Origin: a virus
Virus record (IMG/VR): IMGVR_UViG_3300048694_001005
Location: 1 to 64,000 of that record
DNA length: 64,000 nt
Strand: one strand, 5' to 3'
This document shows, one piece after another, positions 5,486 to 62,810 of the stretch. Made by a program: the position numbers and the translations under genes. The notes below the pieces were generated by a model, which did no database searches, had not been told where the DNA came from, and saw nothing but the letters and a program-made list of their open reading frames with translations. Position 1 is the stretch's first letter. Every line of letters starts with the position of its first letter.

Positions 5486-7267
5486 TTATGCTGCAGGTGG
5501 TTGCATTGGAGTACCAGGCGCAACTGGTGCTGCCGGTGCTGGCGCTGGTACTGGTGCAGCAGGTTGTTCTGGCGCAGGCGGTTGCTGCTGTTCTGGTTCT
5601 ACCGGCTGCTGTGGTGGTTCTACTACATCCTTTTCGTCATCATTGGTTTGTGGATATTTCTGTAATATTGTGTCAATCTTATCCGCATACTTTTTACCAA
5701 TTTCGTTGTCCTTAAGATGAGTCAGTATATCACTTATAAAGTGCATTTCATTTAGTTCGAATTCCTTGCCTTCTGGCTTGGCAGCTATTTGTAAAAATCT
5801 CACAATTACTAAAGGACGCACGTCACGATCAATTCCATGTGGCTCCTGAGACAAACTGCGTATTGCATCATTCAATTTATCATCATTGAATACCCGAGCC
5901 AAGTCTGCACTTACTGAACCATCTGGACCAGCAGGCAATGGTTTACTTAATAGTTTTAAAAACTGTGAAGATTTTTTGTTGTTGAGCGGCATATCTTCAT
6001 CTTCGCGCACCATACTACGCATTTCCTTGATATAGCTACGTACCAATTTGCTAGCCATATCTTTGTGAGTAGCAGATGCACCATGCCAATTCTCTACCAT
6101 ATTGCGAGCAAATTTACTCAATACTGAGTCGTGTTCTGCTAGCTTTGTGCTTACATTCTCCAGCATTTTTAAAACAAATGCAGTACTATCTTTGAACTCT
6201 ATAAGACTCAACATTTGTTTGTCTGATTCGTTTAGCCCAAATCTCTTACTGCCCTGAACAAATTCATCCACCTTCTTCAATAGATTAGCTGCTTCTCTTA
6301 TTTTGTGCTCGTATGCCTTAGCAATTAGTGGCATAGCTGACTCTAGTCTTTGATCAAAAGTCTTTTTAATGAACCTGCCCTTTAGTTCTTCATTTACTTC
6401 TACTTGTTCTTTACTGATTATTTCCTGGAAAGATTCCATGTAGTTGGAATAACCACGCTGACCTTTAAGCTTCTGCAAGGTTTCTTTTAACGTGTGATAG
6501 TATTCAACGGCGGCCTCTACTATTTCTGTCGTTGTCGCATCTTCAAACTGCTGGCGTCTACTTGTGTTAACAAAGTAACGCAGGTCTCGTAGTTGACCAA
6601 TTGCTTCAAAAATATGGCTACTGAAACCGTCATGAACTGCACCACCATTTGCAATATGGCGTGCCACTACTCTAGCACCTAACAAACTGTTTTCTGGTAA
6701 TAGGAAACGCTCGCCCTGGGCGTTCTCAAGATAAATTTTTGCAATATTGCGACTACGTGATCCCTGAATATTTTCATCAATAGGTTTGCTATGAACTACA
6801 ACAATGCGTACACCCTCAGTCATTTTTTGATAGCTACGTTTTGGATTCCCGTACATTGTGCTTTCATTTAAATTATCCAAGTCTTCTTCGGCCGCATGTG
6901 TTTTTGCAAAGGTTTTTAAATCTCTTAAATCCAAAGTTTTCTTGTTAATGTCACGAGCATCAAACGTCATCATGTTTCTCCGTGCAAAGTGCCTCAGACC
7001 TTTTAAAAACTTATACCATAGTTTTTTATCTAAGTCTTCATCATCGGTTATGTTTTTACTGTAAAATACCTTAAGACCTTTTTTATCTGCAATGGTAAGT
7101 GTTACTGTTCCAAATGAATCATTGCCCTGTTTATAGTCAAAACTAAAAAACCTAGCTTCTTCAGGATCAACGGTATCATTGGCTTTTTCATCGCCCAAAT
7201 TAAGGTCGTCAAAACGTGACTTTAACTTATCAAATAGTTCGGAGGAAATTTTTTCTATAGCTTTCAT
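5486..7267 (-). CDS. Large late protein of unknown function
   Basis: The product has 593 residues. The first 430 are mostly charged helices, with a more compact segment around 150-235 (MTEGVRIVVVHSKP, then ARVVARHIANGGAVHDGF). The C-terminal 45 residues are a Pro/Gln/Ala tail. Similar large proteins occur beside gp17 in aquatic T4-like phages as conserved hypotheticals; I infer a structural or internal virion protein. It starts 14 nt after the gp17 stop. A GCTAAATA box sits 6 nt before its ATG and no Shine-Dalgarno is visible, so translation may be leaderless or coupled. Confidence 0.75.
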   Translation of the reverse strand: MKAIEKISSELFDKLKSRFDDLNLGDEKANDTVDPEEARFFSFDYKQGNDSFGTVTLTIADKKGLKVFYSKNITDDEDLDKKLWYKFLKGLRHFARRNMMTFDARDINKKTLDLRDLKTFAKTHAAEEDLDNLNESTMYGNPKRSYQKMTEGVRIVVVHSKPIDENIQGSRSRNIAKIYLENAQGERFLLPENSLLGARVVARHIANGGAVHDGFSSHIFEAIGQLRDLRYFVNTSRRQQFEDATTTEIVEAAVEYYHTLKETLQKLKGQRGYSNYMESFQEIISKEQVEVNEELKGRFIKKTFDQRLESAMPLIAKAYEHKIREAANLLKKVDEFVQGSKRFGLNESDKQMLSLIEFKDSTAFVLKMLENVSTKLAEHDSVLSKFARNMVENWHGASATHKDMASKLVRSYIKEMRSMVREDEDMPLNNKKSSQFLKLLSKPLPAGPDGSVSADLARVFNDDKLNDAIRSLSQEPHGIDRDVRPLVIVRFLQIAAKPEGKEFELNEMHFISDILTHLKDNEIGKKYADKIDTILQKYPQTNDDEKDVVEPPQQPVEPEQQQPPAPEQPAAPVPAPAPAAPVAPGTPMQPPAA

Positions 7268-32400: not shown

Positions 32401-32850
32401 TTACGCACCAGTAATAATTACGCTTAGTCCAGTTTCAGCTGCGGTTAAATTCCAAGCTACGCTAGCACCATCTGCGAACTCCCAACCACTGGCGCCATAT
32501 TGCACCAATGTGGCTTTGCGTCCGGAAATTTTGCTTACATAGTAAGTTTTACCGCTGTTATCAGTAGCAAACATTCTAAATTCACCTGCTGCTGGTGAAG
32601 TAGTTACTAGTTTACAAATACCAGTACCATCTGTGGCATTCACGCATGTAAAACGCTTGCTGCCTTTTTGATTCAAAAGATAGCTAGTACGTGCTGCTGT
32701 GCCGCCTGAACCACTGATCCAGTCTGTGCTGGTATTAGGTGGTAGGTATGCTGTTACTTGAATCTGATTACCTGTTTGGCTTGTGTTACCAATAGCACCG
32801 ACTTTCAATGTGCCTTCAACTGTTTCCGTCAATTTAAGTGGACGTCCCAT
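32401..32850 (-). CDS. Putative virion structural protein
   Basis: The product has 149 residues, beta-rich, with QIQVTAYLPPN, LNQKGSKRFTCVNATDG and YYVSKISGRKATLVQ. I recognise this pattern from conserved structural proteins of aquatic T4-like phages, where the gene is often near fibres or head decoration genes. It has its own late box and terminator, suggesting high independent expression. Exact location in the virion is unknown. Confidence 0.65.
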   Translation of the reverse strand: MGRPLKLTETVEGTLKVGAIGNTSQTGNQIQVTAYLPPNTSTDWISGSGGTAARTSYLLNQKGSKRFTCVNATDGTGICKLVTTSPAAGEFRMFATDNSGKTYYVSKISGRKATLVQYGASGWEFADGASVAWNLTAAETGLSVIITGA

Positions 32851-32932
32851 TTTGTTGTCTCCTTATGTGGCGTTCTAGGCCCTACGCGGTGGGTACCGCA
32901 TAAATCCGCTAAACCTATTCTAGCGGATACAG

Positions 32933-56823: not shown

Positions 56824-57663
56824 ATGAGTTCAAACCCGCTTGCAAAACATTTTAGACAGCCATCAATCTATATTAAATTGCCCAGCCTGGGTAAATTTTG
56901 GCCAGAAGGCAGCTTAGATTTACCAATAACTGGAGAATTACCAGTTTACCCTATGACCACCAAGGATGAGATTGTGCTTCGTACCCCAGATGCCCTAATG
57001 AATGGTGCTGGATTAGTTGAGACCATACAAAGTTGCTGCCCAAATGTTAAAAATGCATGGGTAGCACCCAATGTTGACATTGATGCCCTACTAATAGCTA
57101 TAAGAATCGCTAGTTATGGACATGACATGGATTTTGATTCTGACTGCCCGCATTGCCAAAAGTCTAATACCTATAGCATTGATTTGAGATTAGCACTTGA
57201 TTCTGTCAAATGCCCAGATTATACACAGCCATTAGATGTTGATAATTTGAAAATCATGCTGAAACCGCAGCCTTATCAACAGGCAAACGAAGCTAATACA
57301 CTGGGTTTTGAAGAACAACGTATGGTTATGTCTATAAATGAGTCTGATTTAGCGACCGAAGAAAAGGTAGCTGCGTTGGCCCAGAGGATGAAACGTTTGG
57401 CAGATATAACAACAGACATATTAACAAAAAGCACGGCTTACATTGTAGCAGAAGATGGGACTAAAGTCGATAACACAGAGCACATAAAGGAATTTTATCA
57501 AAATGCCCAGTCTACTATAATTAAGAAACTGCAGGACAAAGTTGAAGATTTGGCAAAAGAAGCTAATATAAAACCATACGCGGTAAAATGCAATGAATGT
57601 GGCGAAAATTACGAAATGGCAATTGAGTTTAATTATTCAAGTTTTTTCGGCGTAGGCTTTTGA
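56824..57663 (+). CDS. 26: gp26-like baseplate hub protein
   Basis: The product has 279 residues. The N-terminus (HFRQPSIYIKLPSLGKFWPE, then LPVYPMTTKDEI) and the two cysteine pairs, CPHC near 113-116 and CNEC near 258-261, are the pattern I know from gp26-like hub proteins of T4-like phages. T4 gp26 takes part in assembling the central hub of the baseplate. The cysteine pairs probably bind zinc. It is longer than T4 gp26 (208). It overlaps the following gene by 4 nt. Confidence 0.82.
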   Translation: MSSNPLAKHFRQPSIYIKLPSLGKFWPEGSLDLPITGELPVYPMTTKDEIVLRTPDALMNGAGLVETIQSCCPNVKNAWVAPNVDIDALLIAIRIASYGHDMDFDSDCPHCQKSNTYSIDLRLALDSVKCPDYTQPLDVDNLKIMLKPQPYQQANEANTLGFEEQRMVMSINESDLATEEKVAALAQRMKRLADITTDILTKSTAYIVAEDGTKVDNTEHIKEFYQNAQSTIIKKLQDKVEDLAKEANIKPYAVKCNECGENYEMAIEFNYSSFFGVGF

Positions 57664-57878: not shown

Positions 57879-58375
57879 AAGCCATAGTTATACACACAAT
57901 TATTTTATTTTAGGTATTCTTTAAAGATGTGCTAACGCACATCTGCATTTCGCTTACGCTCATGCATTTTGTTGATACCTTAATTGCTTTTAAGACTGTA
58001 TGCTTTTGACTGTGGTATTCATCCAGATCAATCAGTCATAATATGCCTTGACAGACATATTATGAAAGAAACGCTTCATCCGAGTCGTTACAGTCACTGA
58101 TCTAAAGAGATTACAAATTTATTTGCACGGACGCGGTTGATCGGTACGCCCTACTCTAGCATTGCTTGTTATCAACGGGACCTACATTACACGGATCAGC
58201 GGCGTAATGTAAGTTATGGGTTGTGCCTGTTTCACAGAGCCCAAGATCCTTTGGAGCCTAAGGTAGTTCTTGCCTTGCAACACCTGAAATCCGACGGCAT
58301 CAGCTGACTGGCAGTCTCGACAGGGGTCTAGCAGCCTAGACCAAACGCGGTTGCTATGTATTGCCTAAATTATTC
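57879..58375. ncRNA. Gene-free structured region, candidate non-coding RNA
   Basis: No frame longer than about 20 codons is seen in these 497 nt. Several perfect hairpins are present: 57925-57944 (8-bp stem, TAAC loop), 58037-58064 (9-bp stem), 58083-58090 region unpaired, 58183-58211 (8-bp stem), 58306-58316 (4-bp) and 58325-58342 (7-bp stem, CAGC loop). A 9-bp direct repeat, ACGCGGTTG, occurs at 58131-58139 and 58345-58353. Base composition is more GC-rich than the surroundings. The strand is uncertain. It could be a phage ncRNA (GOLLD or HEARO/omega-RNA-like), a degenerate intron, or a relic of a mobile element. Confidence 0.5.
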
Positions 58376-59440
58376 TTAAGATTTGAGCTTACAATTGTCT
58401 AAATGATATCGTGCCATATTTGATGTACCGCCCATTTTGCCACAATGCGGGCATGTAACCTGAATTTGTGGGCCCTTGGGCTTACGCATTTTTTGTTTAG
58501 TTTCTTCTGTTAATATTTTGCCTTTTTTACTTTTGCCTATATTTAGTTTCCACTGTGCCTTTTGCTCTTCGGTCATTTTGTAATAACAAGGTTTGCCATA
58601 CATGCCATTATCTTTGCCTTCGTGACGCATTTTTTCTTTTACCACTGCCAATTCTTCCTCAGTTAAATTTGCGAATGGGTGCCGACCAAACATACCATTA
58701 TCTTTGCCTTTATGTGCCATTTTTGATTTTGCTACAATTAATTCTTCTTCGGTTAGTTTTTCAAAAGGATGTGTTCCATATCTTGGACTCAACATACCTT
58801 TTCGACCATACATTGGATTGTTAACCCCTCTATAATTCTGATTCAACCAGGCCTCATATTCTTCATCGGTTTTATTTCTTTTTGTTGAATTATTTTCTCC
58901 CAACCTAAATTTTGCTCTGTAATTTTCCTTCTCTTCCTCAAGCATACCATGCTCCCAAAGAAAGTTTTCATTTGGGTATCTGTCCTTAATCAAAGTCCAC
59001 AGTCTTGATGCCTCCTCGTCACTTTCTTCGTGCGGCGGCAAAAACTTAATTGGAGGAATAATAGCATTGTAATAACGCCGCTCGCCATTGGGCAATTTTG
59101 TTCTTAATGCATCTTCCACGATCATTTTTTCAACCTCCGCATAGGTCAATGCCGCTTTTGATTTATGAAGTGATTCAATAATAAAAACGAATCGAGATTT
59201 TCCATGCTCTTTAATCAATTTATTAATCGTTTCGGAAGAACTAGTATATGTTTTCCAATCAGATTCTTTGGTGGTCCAAACTTTGTTTTTCCTACTTTTG
59301 AGACGTTTGCTTCTCTTACTAAAAAATAATTTTTTCCCAATGTACTCTCGAGAAGTTTCAGTATCAATTATCCTATATATAAACCCAACCCATTCATTAA
59401 CGTCAAATTTTTTTGGATATTGCCAATGTCCTAAATCCAT
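58376..59440 (-). CDS. GIY-YIG endonuclease with NUMOD3 repeats and zinc finger
   Basis: The product has 354 residues. GFIYRIIDTETSREYIGKK at 19-37 is a GIY-YIG nuclease core, followed by a Lys/Arg-rich insert and RFVFIIESL with a catalytic-type Glu near 89. Residues about 220-310 contain repeated NUMOD3-like units (NPMYGRKG, DNGMFGRH, DNGMYGKP). The C-terminus has a CPHC and HxxxxC zinc-finger-like pair. It is a free-standing homing endonuclease of the Seg type in its domain order. It lies beside the unexplained structured region. Confidence 0.85.
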   Translation of the reverse strand: MDLGHWQYPKKFDVNEWVGFIYRIIDTETSREYIGKKLFFSKRSKRLKSRKNKVWTTKESDWKTYTSSSETINKLIKEHGKSRFVFIIESLHKSKAALTYAEVEKMIVEDALRTKLPNGERRYYNAIIPPIKFLPPHEESDEEASRLWTLIKDRYPNENFLWEHGMLEEEKENYRAKFRLGENNSTKRNKTDEEYEAWLNQNYRGVNNPMYGRKGMLSPRYGTHPFEKLTEEELIVAKSKMAHKGKDNGMFGRHPFANLTEEELAVVKEKMRHEGKDNGMYGKPCYYKMTEEQKAQWKLNIGKSKKGKILTEETKQKMRKPKGPQIQVTCPHCGKMGGTSNMARYHLDNCKLKS

Positions 59441-59730: not shown

Positions 59731-61734
59731 CTAAATATTTGCTATTTCCGTACTGGTTTCATACGTGGTAAAGCCATTTTCTTTGATGACTCGTAGTATA
59801 TTGTTTACCCTACCTGCTAATTCATCCTTGTGACTTACTAACCAAACACTTTTATTGAGCTCACGACTCATGCGTTTAAGCATACCTAGTGCATTATCTA
59901 CGCCGCTACTATCCAGACCGCTGTCAATTAGCTCGTCAATAAACATGAGATTAATGGGCTGATATAAACTTTCCCAAACATCACGAAATGCCCAGCTAAG
60001 GCTCAGTATCAGTCGTGTTCTTTCGCCCCTCGATAAATTATCAAAGTCCAGCTCACGGCCCAGTTCTGTGATCTCAACTGTGAGGTCATTCATAAAGGTT
60101 ACAGTATGTGGCAACCCAATACGTTCCAAATACTGGCTTAGACGTGTATTCAAATAGCCTAAGTTTTGATCAATGATGCGTTTACGTACAAAGCTATCTT
60201 TGTTGGTCAGCAATTTAAGCAAAAACTCCTGATGCTCACGTAACATTTCCAATTGATTGATGGTTTCATAGTTAATCTCAATCACGGCTTTGTTCTGCAT
60301 CTCGTCGATTTGCTCGACGTAGGGATCAGTTTCGTTTTCTTTGTTTTCAAGATCCCTAACTAGTCCATCCAACCGGTTTTTATGATCCAATGCATCCGCC
60401 AGCGTATCATAAAACACTTTGGGCATGGCGCCCAGGGCTCCTAGCTGTTTTAGTGATGCGTTATGCTCTTTTTCCTCTGCATCAGACCGGTTCCACTGCG
60501 TTTCTGCTTCCGTCAGTGACTCTTGTTTGTCTCTGCGGATTTCTTCCTGCTTGCCATCATGTATAGTTTGTCCACAAGCATAGCATTCGTGATTATCCAG
60601 TGATGCGATCTCTTTGCGCAGCTTTTCCTGAGCTTTTTCTAACTTAGCTTTATCATCTGCAGACTGTTTAATCAGCTTTTTGCATTCATCAATTTGCTTC
60701 TTGCGTTCGTTATAAGCATCAAGGTCACGATGTAGTTGTAATTCTTGCTCAATGTCTATGTTTACTAGATCGCCTATGGATCTAGACAGTTTGGCCTTGT
60801 CTTCTTCGTGTTTATTCTGCCACAGCCGCTGTCTACGCTCTAGTGATTCAATTTGTTCCTTGATTCTCGCATTGGCTTCTTCTGTGGCCTTAATCTTGTA
60901 TTGTTCCTGGGTAATGAGATCTTTGGTATCTTTGATTTGCTCTTTGAGATGATCAGCTTTTTCACTTAGCAGTGTAATACCCAGCAGTTGCTCAATGATA
61001 CTGCGCTGGTCAGCTGCTCTAAGACTTAGGAACGGCTCAGTATAAGTGTTTAGCGCCACGATATGCTTAAACATATCAGGGCTGATACTTAATATACGTT
61101 CTATTTCCTGTTGTGTTTCGCGGCTGTCGCCCTGACTTTCGTCAGCTTCGTTATTTGCAGCATCTACTCGCTCAACGTCATTTACATAAAACTTCAGCAG
61201 TGTGGGTTTACGACCGCGCTCAATGCGATAGTGGTTGCCGCCATGCTCAAAATCCACTGTGACCAGCATGTTTTTGCCGTTGGTCTTATTAATAAGATTG
61301 TCTTTTTTGATATTGGTTAGTGCATTGCCAAATAACCCATAGCTAAGAGCATTGGCAATAGTAGTATTGTGCGACAGAATCCCATTGGTATAGTATCTGT
61401 GTTCATCAGAATTAACGGCAATGTCAAACATATTTTCTTCTTGTTCAGAAGCTTGTATGTCTGATACTTTCTCTAACCCATCAATGGTTTGAATAAATGA
61501 ATTAAGCCTAATGTCTTTTACAAAAATTTCGTTGAATTCATCATTAAATAAAATATGATCGTCCGCGCACCTGAGATTTTTCCCTGATTCGGTTTTGACC
61601 GTCCATACATGATATGGAATTGTTTTATGTATGGACGTAATGGGACTCCATCCAGAATCTGTTTCAATCTCTAAATTTTTTAGATTTACAGAGTTGATAA
61701 ATTTTCTATTTACGATGTCAGAAATTGAATGCAT
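59731..61734 (-). CDS. 46: C-intein fused to the C-terminal part of gp46
   Basis: The product has 667 residues. Residues 1-123 are the C-terminal part of a split intein: block B-like CADDHILF (56-63), block F FDIAVNSDEHRYYTNG (103-118) and block G GILSHN ending in N123. The C-extein starts at T124 (TTIANALSYGLF), exactly the second half of a Walker A loop. The rest is Rad50/SbcC-like gp46: coiled-coils, zinc hook CYAC at 384-387, signature LSRGER at 567-572, Walker B LMFIDE at 596-601 and H635. The start has AAAGGA upstream. After splicing gp46 would be 596 residues (T4: 560). Confidence 0.93.
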   Translation of the reverse strand: MHSISDIVNRKFINSVNLKNLEIETDSGWSPITSIHKTIPYHVWTVKTESGKNLRCADDHILFNDEFNEIFVKDIRLNSFIQTIDGLEKVSDIQASEQEENMFDIAVNSDEHRYYTNGILSHNTTIANALSYGLFGNALTNIKKDNLINKTNGKNMLVTVDFEHGGNHYRIERGRKPTLLKFYVNDVERVDAANNEADESQGDSRETQQEIERILSISPDMFKHIVALNTYTEPFLSLRAADQRSIIEQLLGITLLSEKADHLKEQIKDTKDLITQEQYKIKATEEANARIKEQIESLERRQRLWQNKHEEDKAKLSRSIGDLVNIDIEQELQLHRDLDAYNERKKQIDECKKLIKQSADDKAKLEKAQEKLRKEIASLDNHECYACGQTIHDGKQEEIRRDKQESLTEAETQWNRSDAEEKEHNASLKQLGALGAMPKVFYDTLADALDHKNRLDGLVRDLENKENETDPYVEQIDEMQNKAVIEINYETINQLEMLREHQEFLLKLLTNKDSFVRKRIIDQNLGYLNTRLSQYLERIGLPHTVTFMNDLTVEITELGRELDFDNLSRGERTRLILSLSWAFRDVWESLYQPINLMFIDELIDSGLDSSGVDNALGMLKRMSRELNKSVWLVSHKDELAGRVNNILRVIKENGFTTYETSTEIANI

Positions 61735-62810
61735 TTTTTAATTGTTTCCTTTTGATTTTTCTTGAAATCATGTTCCCAGATAATTAAAACTTCATATCCT
61801 TGATCACGAGCACATTGTAATTTTACAGCATCTGATGCCCATTTATCAATAGATTTAACTTTAGTTCTTGGATTTATAAAATCTGGCGAATATATAGAAG
61901 GGTTAGAGTGCCAAAAATCACCATTATATTCTATGATTTTATTATTGGCCATAATATCATAGATGTATTGTTTTTTACCTGATTCATGTAAAGTAAATTG
62001 ATGTATGGCATCTGGTATTGTTTCTTTTATTGCTTTCAGTATTAATTTTTCTGCTTTTGAAACAGTAATTCCTTTAGTTAACTTTAAACGATTAATTCTA
62101 GACTTTTCTTCTGCGGATTTGGAATTTAAGGTGCCCTGCCATTTATTTTGTCGATCTTGCCAAATCTTCATCCCCTCATTTTCTCCATATTTTTGTACGC
62201 ATATTTCTTTTGAAAAATATTTTTGCGAGTTTGACAACATGAGTGCTGACTCTTCTGCGGAATATCCCCTAGCAGTATAGTATTCAATACATCGAGGTGA
62301 TGAAACTCGATGTAAGTTTGATCTAGATTTTTTTTCGGCACCTAATTTATTATTGGACCTTTTCGTTTCTTTAGCTAATTTAATAGCTTCTTCAAGAGAA
62401 AATCCTTTGTTGATCCAATACTCTTTCCTAATCGGCCTTCGACTATTTCTTTCTTGATCAGCTTCGTCCTCGGTATAGTTTTTTCCGGTTATGGGATTGA
62501 TCTTGTTAAGCCAAAAATTTCTGCTATAAACACTACACGGATTCCCTGATTTATGTTTTTTGGCCTTTATATGCGACTCCTCATAGGTCCAGCCTCGTGA
62601 TAACCAATAAGATTTTGTGCGTGGCGCAGCATTGGTTGTTAGGTTTAATTTTTGACGAATGAATTGCTCAATAATTTTCTTGTTGTTTTCAATTTTGATA
62701 CTCAACAAGTCGACTAACAATTTTTGATACAGATCAGGATTTAAATTTTTGATAGTTTGTTCCATTACTTCTTGACAATTAACTTTGAGTTCTTTGTTCC
62801 AGCGCGGCAT
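61710..62810 (-). CDS. Vsr-like (EDxHD-type) homing endonuclease between intein halves
   Basis: The product has 366 residues. The C-terminal 120 residues form a Vsr-like nuclease: E254 (SKAEKLILKA), YDI with D285, IIEYNGDFWHS with E294 and H301, and IIWEHDF with D348. This matches the pattern of the nuclease family found between split-intein genes in phage metagenomes (I-Bth0305I relatives). The N-terminal half has four repeats of YW-x-x-x-G-[WFY]-[ST]-x-E-E, probably DNA-binding. Start and stop overlap the flanking intein genes by 32 and 25 nt; GGAG precedes the ATG. Confidence 0.88.
   Translation of the reverse strand: MPRWNKELKVNCQEVMEQTIKNLNPDLYQKLLVDLLSIKIENNKKIIEQFIRQKLNLTTNAAPRTKSYWLSRGWTYEESHIKAKKHKSGNPCSVYSRNFWLNKINPITGKNYTEDEADQERNSRRPIRKEYWINKGFSLEEAIKLAKETKRSNNKLGAEKKSRSNLHRVSSPRCIEYYTARGYSAEESALMLSNSQKYFSKEICVQKYGENEGMKIWQDRQNKWQGTLNSKSAEEKSRINRLKLTKGITVSKAEKLILKAIKETIPDAIHQFTLHESGKKQYIYDIMANNKIIEYNGDFWHSNPSIYSPDFINPRTKVKSIDKWASDAVKLQCARDQGYEVLIIWEHDFKKNQKETIKKCIQFLTS

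Follow-up and report, generated by a model that had tools for sequence, protein, structure and literature searches.

A large structured RNA at a conserved locus of freshwater T4-like phages, with probable relatives in jumbo phages and a duplicated motif whose copies vary together

The window analysed here, a stretch of 64,000 nt, belongs to a 180.6-kb virus record from a T4-like phage, and the region of interest (57879-58375) lies in it between two convergent genes. An earlier note, made from the sequence by itself, had placed this region between a gp26 operon and a homing endonuclease gene on the other strand, and domain searches agree: the gene on one side encodes a gp26-type baseplate protein (Pfam T4_baseplate, PHROG baseplate hub), which marks a conserved locus, and that on the other a SegE-type GIY-YIG endonuclease (Table 1). 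Beyond the endonuclease gene, a gp46-like ORF is apparently interrupted near its start (59731-61734 and 61710-62810, both minus strand); its first part looks like an intein/Hint-type segment and the adjoining ORF resembles a homing endonuclease. The gp46 gene of L004, a close relative of the window, is continuous.

The claim that the region has no coding potential holds, as its longest internal ORF is of 56 aa, on the plus strand, and no ORF is conserved; relatives preserve the helices but not any reading frame, and the frameshifted gene that the note had allowed for does not appear among the homologues. The region is also, as had been noticed, richer in GC (42.3%) than its 500-nt flanks (37.6% and 37.0%); 30% of the window pieces of the same size have a GC content at least as high, and that of the core (58018-58367) is 46.6%. 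The region had further been called structured, without an assigned strand, and both its stable fold and the helices kept in relatives support this. The minus strand folds at -139.1 kcal/mol (z -2.70), a stability reached by none of 100 shuffles, and the plus strand at -133.2 kcal/mol (z -1.83), reached by 6 of 100. Based on this lower energy and the shuffles, the structured strand is the minus strand, and the RNA runs from about 58375 to about 57915, both ends being approximate. A 9-bp direct repeat at 58131 and 58345, also listed in that note, is indeed present; because the window holds a third occurrence of it and it is broken in L004, which is 98% identical, we treat it as a chance repeat. 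Taken together with the comparative evidence below, it is almost certain that 57915-58375 is a genuine structured noncoding RNA gene. The same phage has a second structured RNA at 32848-32924 (minus strand), which matches the Rfam family freshwater-2 with 52.1 bits (gathering score 49.9).

Relatives were sought starting from the neighbouring baseplate gene, which led to loci with the same intergenic region. Besides L004, these include L005 and L006, both 73% identical over 58018-58367, and the divergent L009. Two DNA patterns derived from conserved blocks of the window each retrieved at least 119 IMG/VR stretches, and after removal of near-duplicates there are at least 159 non-redundant relatives in IMG/VR, the window included. 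By their core sequences they split into a window type and a second subgroup, the Polynucleobacter-1 type; a third kind of 5' domain is found inside the window type (L057, L208 and L232). The 3' half is common to both types and the 5' domain is variable. A covariance model of the 3' half, R1, was built from window-type RNAs and also matches RNAs of the Polynucleobacter-1 type (L009, 71.4 bits, E 2e-14; L028, 100.3 bits, E 3e-21); in the 180.6-kb record it finds a single copy. Among 80 loci picked by the gp26-type baseplate protein alone, R1 finds the RNA beside the gene in 70, part of which had been used in building the model and the rest not, and in all 70 the RNA lies on the strand opposite to the baseplate gene. 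Of the ten R1-negative loci, six are on contigs that stop no more than 401 nt from the gene, and the L041 contig breaks off within the RNA. A smaller search revealed a divergent copy in L023 (E 0.0029). L031 and L085 hold a different structured-looking noncoding sequence in the same slot, sharing ACTGCGATGAGCAGTCC and GTCAATCCCCTCC, which matches neither R1 nor R2, a model trained only on the jumbo-phage RNAs described below. A comparison of the window, L004, L325, L336, L321 and L322 shows that the gene in the upstream slot often encodes a branched-DNA or homing nuclease of differing family (SegE GIY-YIG, PDDEXK/RusA-like or EndoVII). When the window region and three relatives were compared by BLAST with cultured phages and plasmids, only endonuclease-gene or chance-level matches were obtained, and two pattern scans of 84,980 prokaryote genomes gave no match.

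Covariation among the homologues, a check that the earlier note had proposed, is strong, and two of the helices that it supports are pseudoknots. The alignments were made with MAFFT, with some loops misplaced, and the pair counts cover the window type only, because in a mixed alignment of all types the H4 strand was poorly aligned and the RNAalifold consensus was poor. Across 39 aligned window-type sequences, 91.9% of the cells of the proposed structure are paired, versus 82.4% in shuffles, and 25 of its 39 pairs have changed on both sides; not one of 500 shuffles attained either value. As a control, sliding the columns by 1-3 left 39-53% of cells paired and 6-11 pairs changed on both sides. 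A G-test with a phylogenetic null, in which substitutions were placed at random on the tree, detected significant column pairs in both subgroups, 10 in one and 23 in the other, of which 6 and 19, respectively, are more than 80% canonical. In the outer stem of hairpin A, three of four pairs have changed on both sides, and in H5 the window itself carries a double change, C-G where 38 of the 39 sequences have G-C. The partner sequences of the long pseudoknot are wholly different among relatives (CTGATC/GATCAG, ATTTATTAT/ATAATAAAT and GCTAACTA/TAGTTAGT), and each loop with its own strand gave 15.5, versus 11.75 with swapped strands. The 3' half reads, in order, hairpin A, hairpin B, H4 (which reaches into the loop of H5), a closing helix and the 3' strand of the long pseudoknot, and then motif copy 1, H8 and motif copy 2, with two terminal hairpins last.

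Table 1. Features of the RNA and its neighbours (window coordinates unless another source is named)
Feature	Position	Strand	Basis or remark
Whole RNA gene	57915..58375	minus	Homologous and similarly structured in relatives; ends approximate, at the end of the nuclease gene and slightly beyond the final 3' hairpin
R1 match	58018-58245	minus	Covariance model, 157.6 bits
5' domain, variable module, window type	58246..58375	minus	Sequence comparison
5'-domain hairpin, RNA GGUCUAGGCUGCUAGACC	58325..58342	minus	Sequence itself; equivalents by eye in relatives
Hairpin A, outer stem GGGC..CCC	58217..58244	minus	Pair-count helices 1 and 2, with 100% and 96.5% of cells paired
Hairpin B; loop CUGAUC (58194-58199) forms the long pseudoknot	58180..58214	minus	Swap test, pair count
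Long pseudoknot, 3' strand, RNA GAUCAG, the complement of CUGAUC in hairpin B	58097..58102	minus	Own-versus-swapped strand test; pair count
Pseudoknot H4, GUUGA (within 58172-58178) with UCAAC (58136-58141)	58136..58178	minus	96.2% of cells paired, both-side changes
Hairpin H5, GGGC with GCGUCC	58129..58154	minus	Pair count, columns 107/123
Motif copy 1, RNA ACUCGGAUGAAG; identity-locked block GGAUGAA at 58075-58081	58074..58085	minus	Motif comparison
Hairpin H8, between both motif copies	58036..58065	minus	Fold, pair count
Motif copy 2, RNA AUCUGGAUGAA; block GGAUGAA at 58018-58024	58018..58028	minus	Motif comparison
3' hairpin with shared GAGCGNNAGCGA loop	57944..57966	minus	GAGCGNNAGCG once in the window; present in relatives
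Terminal 3' hairpin	57925..57944	minus	Sequence itself; equivalents in relatives
SegE-type GIY-YIG endonuclease, just upstream of the RNA	58376..59440	minus	Domain search
gp26-type baseplate protein, 279 aa, convergent; marks the conserved locus	56824..57663	plus	Domain search
Terminator between motif copies, jumbo phage	L326 1762-1779	minus	
Terminator between motif copies, jumbo phage	L335 3409-3426	plus	

The two motif copies, ACUC-RGAURAW and AUCU-RGAURAW, lie about 53 nt apart, at a spacing that varies from 47 to 61 nt among relatives. In 152 sequences, the copies within an RNA are identical at all seven positions of the block, with one exception at the last position; for the three variable positions, the identity expected from shuffling is 50%, 53% and 67%. 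On a tree made without the motif, there were at least 35 switches at the first purine (R) and at least 14 at the second, and no sequence is mixed between copies at these two positions. The patterns used to scan IMG/VR did not constrain this identity, since one overlaps copy 2 alone and the other lies outside both, and the frame by which the copies were found left both purine positions and the last position free. Partial identity between copies is also seen at positions -5, +8 and +9. A complementary partner of the motif was sought inside the RNA and none was found, nor does any column pair with the motif. Gene conversion between the copies is unlikely, because the three bases preceding the block differ (CUC versus UCU) in 152 of 152 sequences, though the search frame fixed those letters.

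The closest cultured homologues of the baseplate protein are found in jumbo phages, several of which have a noncoding gap at the place that the RNA occupies in the window. A BLAST search with the gap of PBECO4 matched 42 phage records, with matches at 4-5 places in most RaK2-like ones, and a related RNA, unannotated in 121Q, PBECO4, GAP32, Munch, BF and RaK2, is present in 3-5 copies per genome. R2 counts five copies each in Munch, GAP32 and BF, four in PBECO4 and three in RaK2, and finds none in PA5oct, Phosso or Atu_ph07. Within each genome all copies lie on one strand, and in PBECO4, Munch and GAP32 the gap between the baseplate gene and gp46 holds one of them. In the alignment of the jumbo family, 28 of 39 predicted pairs show both-side changes in one sequence or more. 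An exact TATAAT lies 54-97 nt upstream of the conserved start in all 20 copies checked, often within TGNTATAAT, and intrinsic terminators were found at the copies; these two features suggest that in jumbo phages the RNA would be a stand-alone transcript. The literature searched on these phages makes no mention of such an RNA.

Some further properties of the jumbo-phage loci should be noted. Close to the corresponding place, PA5oct and Phosso also contain long noncoding gaps (L321, about 6530-7190; L322, 7233-8246), which match neither R1 nor R2. The RNA copies of L328, L340, L343, L344, L348 and L350 carry insertions of a short repeated piece (..ACAATATAGATCCGTCCAAAATTTGA..) at varying sites, like a small mobile hairpin. 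Several copies have a T-run intrinsic terminator between motif copy 1 and H8/copy 2, and because of its location motif copy 2 might not always be transcribed in these cases. Finally, the copies in GAP32, BF and Munch are rather evenly spread, with gaps of about 52-84 kb; a smallest gap that large has a probability by chance of about 0.003-0.005 in each, the three phages being related and hence not independent.

Two lines of evidence make it very probable that the jumbo-phage RNA is a homologue of the window RNA. Firstly, R2, in whose training no window-clade sequence was used, matches 15 of 22 window and IMG/VR sources at the site and on the strand of the RNA (E 2.7e-4 to 0.24), the matches to single window-type RNAs being individually modest; on the window it matches 58106-58157 (minus strand, E 0.054), and 14 of 21 relatives are likewise matched at the RNA site. 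R1 does not recognise the jumbo RNAs. Secondly, the topology is shared, since both groups have the same order of helices, both pseudoknots and a duplicated identity-locked motif around a hairpin, the pseudoknot pairs and motif identity of the jumbo RNAs having been read by eye. The jumbo motif, also by eye, reads CGUCAA, CGUCAG or, in RaK2, CUUCAA in both copies, and one of 21 RNAs (L347) is mixed at the last motif base. The genomic slot is the same in the window clade and the jumbo phages.

The earlier note had proposed a large phage RNA, and the strong covariation, together with homologues free of a frameshifted gene, bears this out: the RNA is a member of a widespread superfamily of large phage RNAs of about 450-500 nt. 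As to what it does, we favour a trans-acting RNA scaffold that presents two sites to one partner, a mechanism to which, as a whole, we give a probability of about 0.5. A stable transcript acting in trans would be produced during infection, in jumbo phages from the RNA's own promoter and in the window clade probably by co-transcription with the upstream nuclease and gp46 genes. A single partner would then recognise both motif copies, most likely an RNA-binding protein of the phage that binds as a pair or dimer, and such a common reader would force the copies to change together. A shared partner is suggested by the identity over 7 nt, the at least 35 and 14 switches, the lack of any discordant case at the purines and the lack of a complement within the molecule. 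More tentatively, the motif may represent a new kind of covariation, in which two distant 7-nt segments are required to be identical rather than complementary, in one new class of pseudoknotted RNAs that is core to a whole branch of T4-like and jumbo phages; in this joint and still speculative reading, the identity could be caused either by one dimeric partner reading both copies or by parallel, symmetric homo-base pairs.

It is conceivable, if rather improbable, that the RNA is instead a structured 3' UTR, a cis element of the nuclease/gp46 operon that ends, protects or regulates the mRNA at the convergent baseplate junction. Such an element would fit the position of the RNA, which always follows a gene on its own strand closely and at tight spacing, is turned towards gp26 in many loci and ends in two hairpins, and also the window clade, where a common promoter was not found (TATAAT occurs within 250 nt upstream in 22 of 155 cases). 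However, the upstream gene is freely exchanged while the RNA persists (of 158 loci, 113 have a gene for a GIY-YIG protein and the others genes for different proteins), and the jumbo phages carry the RNA at several loci, each copy checked having TATAAT upstream. Moreover, a terminator needs neither two pseudoknots nor a 7-nt identity lock.

That the motif copies act as DNA sites, in an origin, in recombination or in packaging, with the RNA being secondary, we consider doubtful. Direct repeats of fixed sequence, adjoining nuclease genes, the terminator that separates the motif copies of several jumbo RNAs, the location of all jumbo copies on one strand, and their more even than random spacing in the related phages GAP32, BF and Munch could all be read in this way. 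On the other hand, compensatory changes in helices and pseudoknots are a signature of RNA, the distance between the copies is variable, and IMG/VR records of 150-350 kb are mostly single-copy.

An equally doubtful possibility is direct contact, in which the motif copies lie side by side and pair by symmetric homo-base pairs that allow A/A and G/G but not A/G. The first purine matches only the first and the second only the second, and both copies run in the same 5'-3' sense; the combinations A/A, G/G and C/C are all seen, with no mixture at those positions, and the RaK2 motif changes G/G to U/U. In the HIV Rev response element, a purine-purine pair offers a precedent for the interchange of A/A and G/G. 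However, hardly any parallel homo-duplexes of mixed sequence are known from RNA, and the partial identity outside the block is compatible with a common reader as well.

Lastly, an intron, another mobile element or a guide RNA of the omega/HEARO type might be suspected from the adjoining homing endonuclease and the several copies in jumbo phages, but is very improbable, given that the RNA is intergenic and at the same locus in 70 of 80 relatives, persists without the endonuclease in L004, where a PDDEXK nuclease replaces SegE GIY-YIG and the RNA region is intact, and has neither an Rfam intron or HEARO match nor a TnpB/IscB neighbour.

The function of the RNA lends itself to experiment, as the cultured jumbo phages grow on genetically tractable hosts. 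Nearly all relatives within a freshwater (lake) phage group carry RNAs of this class at a single locus, and cultured phages that infect E. coli, Salmonella, Klebsiella, Cronobacter and Serratia have 3-5 copies, which Rfam does not match. In addition, covariation of identity is not the kind of signal for which searches aimed at complementary pairing are designed.

Comparison with Rfam, another check that had been proposed, gave no match in the region at gathering scores, and just four sub-threshold chance matches at E up to 5. Among the relatives, the family RF01718, Polynucleobacter-1, which was reported in 2010 by Weinberg et al. from Burkholderiales and from fresh water and estuary (PMC2864571), matches only the second subgroup, and there only the 5' domain, on the same strand and at the same place (L009, 66.2 bits; L028, 109 bits). 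The window's own 5' domain is not matched by this covariance model. RF01718 comprises only 141 nt, and the conserved 3' half is missing from it; a fragment described in 2010 thus becomes part of a large RNA, and this fragment appears to be all that the databases and literature searched contain of it.

Of the candidates that the earlier note had named, HEARO/omega RNA resembles the window RNA as a noncoding RNA near a nuclease gene, but here the neighbour is of the GIY-YIG type and not TnpB/IscB-like, and there is no sign of a transposon and no Rfam match. A decayed group I intron or other RNA mobile element is likewise at odds with a conserved locus at which the RNA is intergenic, not inside a gene, in the relatives viewed, and with the lack of an Rfam intron match. 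GOLLD, the third candidate, is pseudoknotted, has a conserved 3' region and a variable 5' region, is often longer than 800 nt and often lies near tRNA genes (PMC12286853). The window-type RNA shares with it the pseudoknots, the conserved 3' region, the variable 5' region and the presence in phages, but is about 460 nt long, has no tRNA genes around it in the 64-kb window, and was not matched by the GOLLD model of Rfam at any threshold tried, in the window or in relatives. ROOL is a large, pseudoknotted RNA of phages and prophages whose function is unknown (PMC12286853), and the window RNA is also large, pseudoknotted and phage-borne; however, it has no Rfam match and the window has no tRNA island. 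Membership of GOLLD or ROOL is therefore rejected by the covariance-model test, by tRNA context and, in the case of GOLLD, by length, and the likeness is one of kind only. Large ornate RNAs of unknown function such as GOLLD and ROOL are a recognised open problem, and the RNA described here adds another such class.
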